The position numbers were made by a program, and so were the translations under genes. DNA of 64,000 nucleotides from Sandaracinus amylolyticus (GTDB taxonomy: Bacteria > Myxococcota_A > Polyangia > Polyangiales > Sandaracinaceae): the NCBI RefSeq assembly GCF_000737325.1, contig NZ_CP011125.1, positions 5,766,001-5,830,000 on the forward strand. Reading direction: 5' to 3'. Below the pieces are notes generated by a model. It did not search any database. It saw only the letters and a list, made by a program, of their open reading frames with translations, and was not told the DNA's origin. Below are positions 5,598-9,669 of the stretch, piece after piece; within the stretch, counting starts at the first letter, position 1, and every line of letters starts with the position of its first letter.

Positions 5598-6377
5598 TCA
5601 CACGGCGGAGCGACGCGCGAACCGATAGAGCTCGGCAGGCCGGTGATCGACGCCGGTCTGCAGATCGCCGGTCGCCTCGAGCTGCCCCGAGGCGAGCATC
5701 CGGCGGCGGAACGAGTCCTTGTTGAGCGGGCGACCGAGCACGGTCTCGTGCACGCGCTGCAGCCCCGCGAGCGTGAAGCGCTCGGGCAGCAGCTGGAACC
5801 CGATCGGCGTGTAGTCGAGCTTCCCGCGCACGCGCTTCACGGCCATCCCGAGGATGTCGGCGTGATCGAACGCGAGCGGGAGCGCGCGACCGTCCGCGCC
5901 GATCGCGTCGACGGGCCCTCCGGTCTCGCCCTCCCAGGGCACTTCCAGCGTCGCGACGCGCGTCTCCTCGCGCGCTTCGGCGAGGCGCGCGGGATCGACG
6001 AGCGCGTAGTGCGCGACGGTGATCACGCGGGTGCGCGGATCGCGCTTCGGCGCGCCGAACGTGTAGAGCTGCTCGAGGAACACCCGGCGGATCCCGGTCT
6101 TCTGCTCGATCACGCGCGCCGCCGCGTCGTCGAGCGCCTCGTCCATGCCGACGAACCCACCGGGCAGCGCCCAGCGTCCGCGGTACGGCGCCGCGTCACG
6201 ACGAAGCAGGAGCGTGCGCAGCGCGCCCTCGTCGACCGTGAGCAGCGCGACGTCGACCGCGACCGAGGGCCGCTCGAAGCGCGAGACGTCGTAGCCCTCG
6301 GGGACCTCGCCGTCGTCTTCCTGATCGGAGCGTGCTCGCTTCGTCATCGCGGCCGCGACCTTCGCTGCATCATGCAT
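5598..6377 (-). CDS. NUDIX-fold, NrtR-like transcriptional regulator
   Basis: The 259-residue protein has an N-terminal NUDIX domain (residues ~35-170) and a C-terminal winged-helix region (~185-255), including 'GFQLLPERFTLAGLQRVHE' and 'FRRRMLASG', the layout of NrtR regulators. The NUDIX box around residue 74 is 'GGFVGMDEALDDAAARVIEQKTGI' shortened here to its key point: the catalytic R-E-x-x-E-E core reads R-V-I-E-Q-K, so the metal-binding glutamates are missing. In the NrtR family this fits sensing of ADP-ribose rather than hydrolysis. An AAGG site 5 bases before the ATG at 6377 supports this start; an alternative is the methionine at 6347. A GATGC inverted repeat lies just upstream. It is the first gene of the operon with the SPFH and NAD-kinase-like genes. 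Confidence 0.85.
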   Translation of the reverse strand: MHDAAKVAAAMTKRARSDQEDDGEVPEGYDVSRFERPSVAVDVALLTVDEGALRTLLLRRDAAPYRGRWALPGGFVGMDEALDDAAARVIEQKTGIRRVFLEQLYTFGAPKRDPRTRVITVAHYALVDPARLAEAREETRVATLEVPWEGETGGPVDAIGADGRALPLAFDHADILGMAVKRVRGKLDYTPIGFQLLPERFTLAGLQRVHETVLGRPLNKDSFRRRMLASGQLEATGDLQTGVDHRPAELYRFARRSAV

Positions 6378-6496: not shown

Positions 6497-7693
6497 TCAG
6501 TCCGCGACGAGGAGAAGACCGCGCTCGTGCCGCAGCAGGATCCGATCCTCGCCGACCGCGACGAGCCCGCTGAACACGGCGCCGGTCGCGAGACGGACCG
6601 GCTCGTCGAGGGTCCAGACACCATCGGTGTGCCGCAGCGTGCGGGCCTCGAGGCCCACGAGGTTCCACGACTCGTCGCGCGCCTCGCTCGCGAGCCGCAT
6701 GCCCCCGATCGCCGTGAACGTGCTCGGCGCGGCGAATTGCGCGAGGGAGCCGGTGGCCGCCGAGATCGGATCCGTCGCCGCGAGCAACGCCGCGAGGTCC
6801 AGCACGTACACGCGATTGCCGCTGCCCGCCGATCCCGCTCCGGCGACGACGACGTCGCCGATGCGCGCGACGCTTCCGCTCCAGTCGCCCATCTCGCCGA
6901 CCGCGCGGCGCGCCGTGGTCGCGCTCACGTCGCGGAGGTAGAGCCCCTGCGAGCTCCCGTCCGATCCCGCGATCGCCAGGCCGTTGATCACGAAGCGCGT
7001 CGCATCGAGCCACTCGCCGTCGTAGTTCCCGTTCGCAGCGACCTCGCTCGTGCCGCCCGCGGAGACGTCGATCTCGAACACTCCGCCGACGAAGCCCGCG
7101 TCGCCCGTCGTGTACCCGAAGATCGCGCGCGCCTCGTCCGGGCTCACCGCGACGTAGCCGCCCGGATAGAGCGCGTCCGCCGCGTGCCCTTCGTGCGTCG
7201 TCGTCGCGACGGTCTCGGGCGCCGGCGCGCTCCCGCTCGGATCGAGCGTCCAGCGCGACAGCGTGAACGTCGTCGTCGTGCCCACCGTCTCCGCCGTGAC
7301 CTCGTACACGCGCGGCATCGCGCCCCCCTCGGGCACGACCACTTCGATCGGCCCGCTCACCGCGCGGCACACGTTCGCGACCGGCACGAGGCCGTCCGCG
7401 AGCGCCGCGTCCATCGCCGCGACGTCCCCGCCGCACGTCGCGACGCACACGCCGCGCAGGCACGCCTCGCCCTCGGCGCACGCCGGATCACACGGCGCGA
7501 CCCACGCATCGGGCGCGACCCACGCGTCCGGCGCGACGTACGCGTCGACCGGCGCCTGCGCGTCGCCTTGCACGACCTGCGCGTCCGTGCCCGCGTCCGA
7601 CGCAGGCGTCACGCCGTCGTCGTCGCCGCACCCCGTCGCGATCACGAGGGCCGCGAAGAGCCCACTCCAACCACTCAGCCTCGCTCGATCCAT
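6497..7693 (-). CDS. Riboswitch-controlled surface lipoprotein, beta-propeller-like
   Basis: From the ATG at 7693 the protein is 398 residues. It opens with a signal peptide and lipobox (ALVIATGC), then an Asp-rich, Ala/Pro-rich linker with two copies of APDAWV, then a CDPACAEGEACLRGVC cysteine module. About 300 residues of beta-strand-rich sequence follow, with recurring turns such as 'GYTTGD', 'RVYVLDLAALL' and 'LEARTLRHTDG' that resemble propeller blades. No family name can be assigned from sequence alone. Its leader holds a complete cobalamin riboswitch, and its GGAG ribosome binding site sits in a hairpin. It is therefore almost certainly repressed by B12. By analogy with BtuG, the B12-binding propeller lipoprotein of Bacteroides, a role in cobalamin capture at the cell surface is plausible but unproven. 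The cysteine module and signal peptide are seen; the propeller is inferred. Confidence 0.8.
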   Translation of the reverse strand: MDRARLSGWSGLFAALVIATGCGDDDGVTPASDAGTDAQVVQGDAQAPVDAYVAPDAWVAPDAWVAPCDPACAEGEACLRGVCVATCGGDVAAMDAALADGLVPVANVCRAVSGPIEVVVPEGGAMPRVYEVTAETVGTTTTFTLSRWTLDPSGSAPAPETVATTTHEGHAADALYPGGYVAVSPDEARAIFGYTTGDAGFVGGVFEIDVSAGGTSEVAANGNYDGEWLDATRFVINGLAIAGSDGSSQGLYLRDVSATTARRAVGEMGDWSGSVARIGDVVVAGAGSAGSGNRVYVLDLAALLAATDPISAATGSLAQFAAPSTFTAIGGMRLASEARDESWNLVGLEARTLRHTDGVWTLDEPVRLATGAVFSGLVAVGEDRILLRHERGLLLVAD

Positions 7694-7698
7694 CACGC

Positions 7699-7712
7699 GC
7701 TCCGTCCGGAGC
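7699..7712 (-). promoter_or_regulatory. Hairpin sequestering the ribosome binding site
   Basis: On the minus strand GCTCC-GGAC-GGAGC forms a perfect 5-bp stem with a 4-base loop. The GGAG of its 3' arm is the only ribosome binding site, 6 bases before the ATG at 7693. It is a likely expression platform for translational control by the upstream riboswitch. Confidence 0.55.
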
Positions 7713-7800
7713 CCGTCCCCGCGGGCCCGTTCGCACACGCGTGCGCCGATCACGATCGCGATCGAGCGAACCGTCGCCCGATCCACCCCGATCGAGCGCA

Positions 7801-8025
7801 CGCGCCGCGCACACGGCAGGTCTCCTGGCTCCCGGATCGTCCGTCGCGGACCACCTTCCCGCCGCGCCCCGCCGCTCACACGACGAGCACGCGCAGTGGT
7901 GACTCGGTGCGCTCGCACCGCGTCCGCGCCGTCCCCGGTCACAGTGGCGGGGGCCGCGCCGGCTTCTCACCGGCTTCCCTCTTCCGCGACGAGCAGGTGC
8001 CCGTCGCTTCCACGCGGCGCGCCCT
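7801..8025 (-). promoter_or_regulatory. Cobalamin riboswitch
   Basis: The minus strand contains the conserved core blocks of the adenosylcobalamin/cobalamin riboswitch in the right order. These are AGAGGGAAGCCGGTGAGAAG, then GCCGGCGCGGCCCCCGCCAC with CTGTGAC, then GAGTCACCACTG, GGGAAGG, and GAGCCAGGAGACCTGCC at the 3' side. The outer arms CGCGCCGCG (near 8013-8022) and CGCGGCGCG (near 7801-7809) are complementary and would form P1. An exact TTGACA lies further upstream at 8061-8066 (minus strand) as a possible -35, without a good -10. The switch ends about 108 bases before the lipoprotein start at 7693. B12 binding is expected to shut off expression. Confidence 0.93.
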
Positions 8026-8175: not shown

Positions 8176-9669
8176 ATGCGTTGGACCCGCACGTGGGTCG
8201 CGGTCCTGGCGACCGCGCTCGCGCTGCTCGCGACCGGCTGCCCGAGGATCTGCGAGACGAGCGATCGTGCCCCCGTTCCCGATGGCGTCACGCCTCGTTT
8301 CGGTGTGCTCGCGTACGACGAGACGCGCACCGAGATCACGTTGCTCGACGAGGTCGGCACGCCGATCGAATTCCCCGAGGCCGACGACCCCGCCGAGCTC
8401 ACCGACATCTGGCTCGACGCGACGTACGAGTGGGAGGATCAGCTCGCGACGATCGGCATCGGGCTCGACGGGCGCATGCCCTGGACGCAGCTGCCCGGCG
8501 GCGGCCTGACGATCGCGACGGCGCGTTACGGCCGCGAGCTCGTGCGCTTCCCGTTCGACACCTCGCCGCCCCAAGAGCTGCGGACCACGCCGATGCTCCT
8601 CGCGCGCCCCGAGGCGAGCGGCGGTCAGGTGCTCGATCTGTTCGTGTCGTTCGCGAGCGAGACCCCGGACGACGAGGACGTCGACACGCTCTATGCGCTG
8701 CGCGCGCCGGGCGTCGATGGCGAGACCGCGTTCGGCCAGGACGTGCTCGTCTTCGAGCTCGATCCCGAGAACGACGAGGGCGGCGCGGTCGTCGACTCGA
8801 TCTCGCTGATCGGCACCGTCGAGGGCGCGCCGCCGCGCCCCGAGCGCATGGTGCCGCGCTTCGATCGCCTCTACGTCGGGCTCGACGGTTACCAGGCGCA
8901 GGGCTCGGCCGAGGGCAACGATCTCGTCGCGCCCGCCGCGCTCGCGATCGTCGATCCCGCAGGGCGTCGCGTGGTGGGCACGTTCCGCTACGACGCGACC
9001 GATCAGGAGCTCTTCCGCTGCGCCGAGGTCGCGCCGAGCCTCGATCCCACGAGCGATCCGACGAACGTCGTGCGCCTCGTCGTCGCGTGCCGCGGCGTCG
9101 GCGGCGACGTGACGACGCGCGCGGAGAGCGCAGGCATCGTGGAGCTCCTCGTCGAGCGCGATCCCGACGACGCCGAGCGCGAGCCAGTGGTGACGCTCGA
9201 GAACGTGTGGTCCTCGCAGTCGTTCTTCGCGACGTTGCCCTCGCGCGGGCTCGTGCCGCTGCCAGGTCGTGCGGCCGCGTTCGTGAGCGCGGGGAGCATC
9301 GAGGAGACGCTCGACGACGCGCTCTACGTGGTCGATCTCGACTCCGAGGAGGCGATCCGCATCCGCGTGGCGTCGGCGCCGCTCTTCCCCGACGAGCTCT
9401 CGGGCATGGGCACCGGCGCGTTCCTGCCCGAGGGCCCCGAGAGCGGCCTGCTCGTGTGGCCGCTCGCGCGCCGCGGCGTGCTGCGCCGCCGCATCCGCAC
9501 CGTGACCGCCGCGGATGGCGAAGGCCGCGACGTCGTGGTGTGCCCGAGCGACCACTCGGCGTGTCTGCCCGAGGACGAAGCGCTCGAAGATCCCGTCGAC
9601 CTCTGCAACAGCCTGCTCGTGGATCAGGTCCGGTTGCTCGACGCTCCTCCTCCCGCCCCGGTGCCCTGA
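8176..9669 (+). CDS. Lipoprotein of unknown function, beta-rich
   Basis: The 497-residue protein has a signal peptide with lipobox ALLATGC and cysteines soon after it (CPRIC). The remainder is acidic and beta-strand-rich, with repeated patterns such as 'LYALRAPG', 'LYVGLDGY' and 'ALYVVDLD' that suggest a propeller, though no named repeat family is evident. A cysteine pair near the C-terminus (VVCPSDHSACLP) may form a disulfide. It lies divergent to the riboswitch-controlled lipoprotein and five bases upstream of a Ser/Thr kinase gene, so the two are co-transcribed. A role as an envelope sensor or partner for that kinase is possible but only inferred from the spacing. Confidence 0.8.
   Translation: MRWTRTWVAVLATALALLATGCPRICETSDRAPVPDGVTPRFGVLAYDETRTEITLLDEVGTPIEFPEADDPAELTDIWLDATYEWEDQLATIGIGLDGRMPWTQLPGGGLTIATARYGRELVRFPFDTSPPQELRTTPMLLARPEASGGQVLDLFVSFASETPDDEDVDTLYALRAPGVDGETAFGQDVLVFELDPENDEGGAVVDSISLIGTVEGAPPRPERMVPRFDRLYVGLDGYQAQGSAEGNDLVAPAALAIVDPAGRRVVGTFRYDATDQELFRCAEVAPSLDPTSDPTNVVRLVVACRGVGGDVTTRAESAGIVELLVERDPDDAEREPVVTLENVWSSQSFFATLPSRGLVPLPGRAAAFVSAGSIEETLDDALYVVDLDSEEAIRIRVASAPLFPDELSGMGTGAFLPEGPESGLLVWPLARRGVLRRRIRTVTAADGEGRDVVVCPSDHSACLPEDEALEDPVDLCNSLLVDQVRLLDAPPPAPVP

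Follow-up and report, generated by a model that had tools for sequence, protein, structure and literature searches.

A Cobalamin Riboswitch Conserved before Predicted Beta-Propeller Lipoproteins of the Myxococcota Suggests a Role in Corrinoid Acquisition

The window analyzed here, a 64 kb stretch at positions 5766001-5830000 of the single 10,327,335-base contig of Sandaracinus amylolyticus, contains a cobalamin riboswitch followed by the gene of a lipoprotein that we assign to family A. This protein is best explained as a B12-repressed lipoprotein of the cell envelope that aids corrinoid acquisition, most likely as a predicted corrinoid binder near BtuB, and we consider such a capture role fairly probable. 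There is good support for control by B12 and for a part in corrinoid uptake, namely the conservation of the switch, the TonB receptors beside some relatives of the gene, the propeller fold and the lack in the host of the corrin-ring genes tested. The observation made in an earlier note on this DNA is right, and stronger than was first claimed. Four features of the window are concerned:

7810..8016, minus strand: cobalamin riboswitch aptamer, RF00174 (cmscan, 59.2 bits, E 3.8e-12)
7695..7716, minus strand: hairpin ACGGGCUCCGGACGGAGCGCGU, candidate translational expression platform (MFE and centroid folds)
6497..7693, minus strand: family A lipoprotein, 398 aa (translation, structure model, homologues)
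8176..9669, plus strand: divergent 497-aa lipoprotein, putative remote relative of family B (recurrent weak BLAST matches)

The earlier note had placed a complete cobalamin riboswitch on the minus strand at 7801-8025, and Infernal recovers it there with a score above the curated gathering threshold of 31.5 bits, as the sole Rfam match of the entire window. The aptamer has a long class-I-like architecture in which the conserved cobalamin core letters are all found (AGGGAA, GCCGGUGAGA, GCCCCCGCCACUGUGACC and GAGCCAGGAGACCUGCC). A chance match as the origin of this call is ruled out by its E-value and its conservation. The aptamer is separated by 116 nt from the start of the lipoprotein gene and, between it and the start codon, the likely Shine-Dalgarno sequence GGAG (7700-7703) is predicted by both folds to be paired within the hairpin. 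Since this hairpin is identical in a congener (G002) and a search found no intrinsic terminator, translational repression by B12 is the likely mode of the predicted control. The aptamer and leader are nearly unchanged between the window and this congener, while their family A proteins are only 66% identical.

The reading frame, which runs from an ATG at 7693 to 6497, bears out the lipobox, disordered linker and cysteine module that had been read from the sequence. A signal with lipobox occupies residues 1-22 (ALVIATG, then Cys22, as read by eye and conserved across the family); it is followed by an Asp-rich linker (23-67), a stretch with six cysteines (68-109) and a beta-propeller that extends to residue 398. 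The view that this is not a known B12 transporter is upheld by the Pfam search, which gave no match of any kind up to E 1, and by NCBIfam, none of whose models matches. Downstream lies a gene for an NrtR-like NUDIX regulator (window 5598-6377, minus strand), which is kept in the congener and has no clear B12 link. The mature N-terminus, CGDDDGV, has neither Lys at +2 nor Ala at +7; in Myxococcus xanthus, the former marks inner-membrane lipoproteins and the latter is seen in those of the matrix (PMC3222651). The outer membrane is thus a plausible default guess for the predicted location of the protein. Asp is found at +2 in four of its relatives, a residue that acts in this position as an inner-membrane signal in E. 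coli.

Residues 68-398, modelled together with three relatives, gave a confident beta-propeller (pLDDT 84.4, pTM 0.85). Its approximately 25 strands can be grouped into six blades with four strands each, an N-terminal strand closing the propeller, so the propeller is apparently six-bladed in this model, the single confident one of five (84 vs 52-70 for the other four). Searches of the PDB by structure (Foldseek, VIA-align) yield many propellers of a generic kind; the best matches have six blades, with Pizza6 in first place (Z 19.0, rmsd 3.2, 234 aligned), and TolB, sugar dehydrogenase, lactonase, paraoxonase and XusB are among the others. BtuG is absent among the 50 matches listed, which proves nothing either way. 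Propellers often bind ligands between their blades, and the most conserved residues of the family include two such interblade motifs, GN[FY]D (222-225) and G..SG (269-273). Propellers also bind many things, and the fold alone is no proof of corrinoid binding. Of the propeller with a binding pocket that was to be looked for, the model supports the propeller, and the clustering of conserved residues on the top face is not significant (p 0.09 and 0.19, with blades assigned by strand order only). The single confident model, the generic fold and this conservation result all count against reading family A as the binder itself.

The linkage of gene and switch was followed in 145 relatives and then by wider searches in the class and the phylum. 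Among the 145, full-length family A is confined to the same family, the Sandaracinaceae, with eight genes in seven genomes, and RF00174 lies immediately before every one of the eight, the window gene included. The aptamer takes a short form before the paralogue described below and before the gene of another genome (G003). More distant relatives were found in other families of the class (G169, G170, G171) and elsewhere in the phylum (G417, G541), and the switch is also upstream in G170, G171 and G417. When each gene is counted once and G169 is left out, its upstream DNA being lost at a contig end, RF00174 thus lies about 30-165 nt upstream in 11 of the 12 family A members across Myxococcota with readable upstream DNA. 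The only one without it is G541, where a contig end leaves half of the gene, and this too counts against the binder reading. The host has six switches for some 9,000 genes (8,962 proteins; PMC5010890), which puts the chance linkage of any one named gene to a switch at <0.1%. In three genomes (G007, G009 and G005), a second cysteine-rich lipoprotein of 259-267 aa directly follows family A and is possibly co-transcribed with it:

L028 5683-6462, minus strand: second Cys-rich lipoprotein
L029 3592-4371, minus strand: second Cys-rich lipoprotein
L031 9750-10553, plus strand: second Cys-rich lipoprotein

The gene order in both G170 and G171 is the switch, family A, a TonB-dependent receptor with Plug and barrel domains, a lipoprotein of family C and a small outer-membrane-like protein; the same order of A, receptor and C is present in G169, whose upstream end is cut by the contig end. 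The C proteins are lipoproteins of 622-634 aa that combine a propeller, YncE-like by reading, with a C-terminal domain matching LIC_13355. Family A was not seen beside btuB in the window genome or in the other Sandaracinaceae read, which again weighs against the binder reading. None of the 24 TonB plug domains of the host genome falls within the window interval, in agreement with the earlier statement that the window has no btuB.

The assignment of the divergent 497-aa lipoprotein to the distant relatives of family B depends on pairwise BLAST, in which weak matches to three family B proteins recurred (small-database E 1e-6 to 8e-5); a profile built from three such proteins was removed by the bias filter of HMMER. 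Its counterpart in G002 is 87% identical and also divergently placed, and in G007 the divergent neighbor of family A is a clearer member of family B. A single-sequence structure model of the 497-aa window lipoprotein was unusable (pLDDT 31.6). Family B lipoproteins are widespread in the order, occurring in 37 of 57 relatives, and they often lie near a cobalamin switch. None of the Pfam or NCBIfam families matches them above its cut-off, and no convincing sequence similarity was found between A and B or between A and C. In one genome (G039), two neighboring cobalamin switches point away from each other, and one of the pair leads towards a gene of family B:

L035 6335-7657: family B lipoprotein
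S. amylolyticus genome 1707328-1708536: family B lipoprotein
L082 2946-3128, minus strand: cobalamin switch, first of the G039 pair
L082 3237-3438, plus strand: cobalamin switch, second of the G039 pair

The host genome has six cobalamin switches, two of which stand directly before its two family A genes, that of the window and a paralogue with 36% identity at 681640-682812. A third leads an operon that encodes a btuB-like TonB receptor, a family B lipoprotein, a BtuF-type periplasmic binding protein and a BtuC-like permease; its btuB-like gene, at 1.705 Mb, is what the proposed check of the genome for a btuB with a similar switch brings to light. Another precedes a further family B lipoprotein. 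At about 6.8796-6.8804 Mb (L034 6590-7357, minus strand), a switch is followed by a LIC_13355-family lipoprotein, a cobT-like gene and cobS; this 255-aa lipoprotein is homologous to the C-terminal domain of the C proteins (36-38% identity, E down to 2e-17). The presence of the domain both in this locus and at the end of the C proteins suggests a B12-related role for the LIC_13355 family.

The remaining switch precedes a ribonucleotide reductase-like gene, identified by sequence, and an enzyme of this kind behind a cobalamin switch follows the usual logic of B12-independent replacement. By extension, family A could be an enzyme or stress protein of the envelope that is produced once B12 is exhausted, as the lactonase and paraoxonase propellers among its structural matches might suggest. 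A secreted, lipidated and TonB-linked protein, however, has no obvious B12-dependent counterpart to replace, and we consider this substitute role the least probable explanation, indeed a very improbable one.

The B12 economy of the host bears on a second alternative, in which family A would bind a different ligand, for example a cobalt complex, a precursor or some other chelate, whose uptake is of use under B12 shortage. The propeller lipoprotein XusB binds ferric siderophores, and in other bacteria the transport of cobalt, too, is under the control of cobalamin switches. The corrin-ring genes CbiC and CbiJ, however, were not found in the host genome under conditions in which control genomes gave matches, so that extra cobalt would not enable B12 synthesis, and the genes seen in linkage encode TonB receptors, BtuF/BtuC-type components and salvage functions. 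A different ligand seems to us very improbable too, if slightly less so than a substitute enzyme. Because MetH, salvage genes and the btuB-like operon are present, the host, probably unable to build the corrin ring, should depend on imported corrinoid.

A third alternative keeps family A within B12 uptake as an accessory that does not bind: repressed by B12, it would work with BtuB as a lid, an assembly factor or a vesicle factor, and binding of the corrinoid would fall to other lipoproteins, namely those of family B, those with the LIC_13355-type domain or C. A lipoprotein of this sort is known in BtuL of Bacteroides thetaiotaomicron, which belongs to a riboswitch operon and showed no cobalamin binding, so lipoproteins in such operons need not bind B12, and this precedent counts against the binder reading (PMC12751083). 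The several other switch-led lipoproteins of the host and the lack of a demonstrable pocket face agree with an accessory role. Yet family A frequently stands by itself with a switch of its own, an arrangement more in keeping with an independent binder than with an accessory; one such case is G417, where a tandem double propeller forms one 810-aa lipoprotein behind a cobalamin switch (L099 2712-5144, minus strand). We regard the accessory role as unlikely, and the capture role, as stated above, as the best explanation.

Under the capture reading, low intracellular cobalamin would leave the ribosome site of the RNA switch free and the lipoprotein would be made; at high cobalamin, the hairpin that sequesters the Shine-Dalgarno sequence would close translation. 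The mature protein, lipid-anchored through Cys22 on its flexible linker, would present its roughly six-bladed propeller, and the corrinoid, most likely bound at one face, would be handed to a BtuB-type TonB receptor, encoded elsewhere in the host genome and next door in the distant relatives.

The closest functional parallel is BtuG of Bacteroides, a seven-bladed propeller lipoprotein whose gene is led by a riboswitch; it binds B12, enters a complex with BtuB (PMC6143338, PMC10404256) and has been reported to be exclusive to the Bacteroidetes (PMC6143338). Family A resembles it in being a lipoprotein with a beta-propeller and a cobalamin riboswitch and, in three distant relatives, with an adjoining TonB-dependent receptor. 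It differs in that its gene stands alone in the host genome, its blades are probably six, its phylum is another, its corrinoid binding is predicted, and sequence similarity is undetectable: two family A profiles (A1, A5) were searched against every chain sequence in the PDB, where the BtuG structures should be included, and BtuG was not matched at any E value up to 10. Of the independent surface B12-capture protein that had been proposed, the independence from BtuG is supported by sequences that show no similarity and by a blade number that is probably six, and surface capture is the predicted part. The best reading of the present evidence is that family A works like BtuG; membership in BtuG is not claimed.

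Other known proteins are comparable in part. BtuH, BtuJ (DUF4465) and BtuK are likewise riboswitch-controlled envelope lipoproteins of Bacteroides B12 uptake loci, and they bind B12; DUF4465 proteins have also been reported from Myxococcota (PMC13398666), but BtuJ is a jelly roll, whereas family A is a predicted propeller that does not match the DUF4465 profile (Pfam, up to E 1). XusB, a siderophore-capturing propeller lipoprotein of Bacteroides, is matched by Foldseek at E about 1e-5, but its ligand is an iron chelate, the identity is 9-11%, and the match is no better than those to many unrelated propellers. LIC_13355 (NF033170), which occurs behind another cobalamin switch of the host and at the C-terminal end of the third gene product of the A-TonB operons, is a separate domain and a neighbor in the system, not family A.

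A literature search of limited scope found no earlier description of family A. If our reading is correct, predatory bacteria of soil and sea have a second, sequence-unrelated propeller family linked to B12 switches, lipoprotein-assisted B12 capture has arisen more than once, and the unnamed families A and B and the LIC_13355 domain gain a testable function; it would also offer a route to study the B12 supply of myxobacteria unable to make the corrin ring. The more ambitious proposition, that the Myxococcota independently evolved B12-switched, putatively corrinoid-binding lipoproteins of the outer surface (the six-bladed A, family B and the propeller-LIC_13355 fusions of C) as a convergent counterpart of BtuG and BtuH, appears to us evenly poised. 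Given the conserved switch before nearly all relatives and the B12-type importer gene beside some of them, it is probable that helpers for B12 gathering have evolved within this lineage, as they did in the gut Bacteroides.
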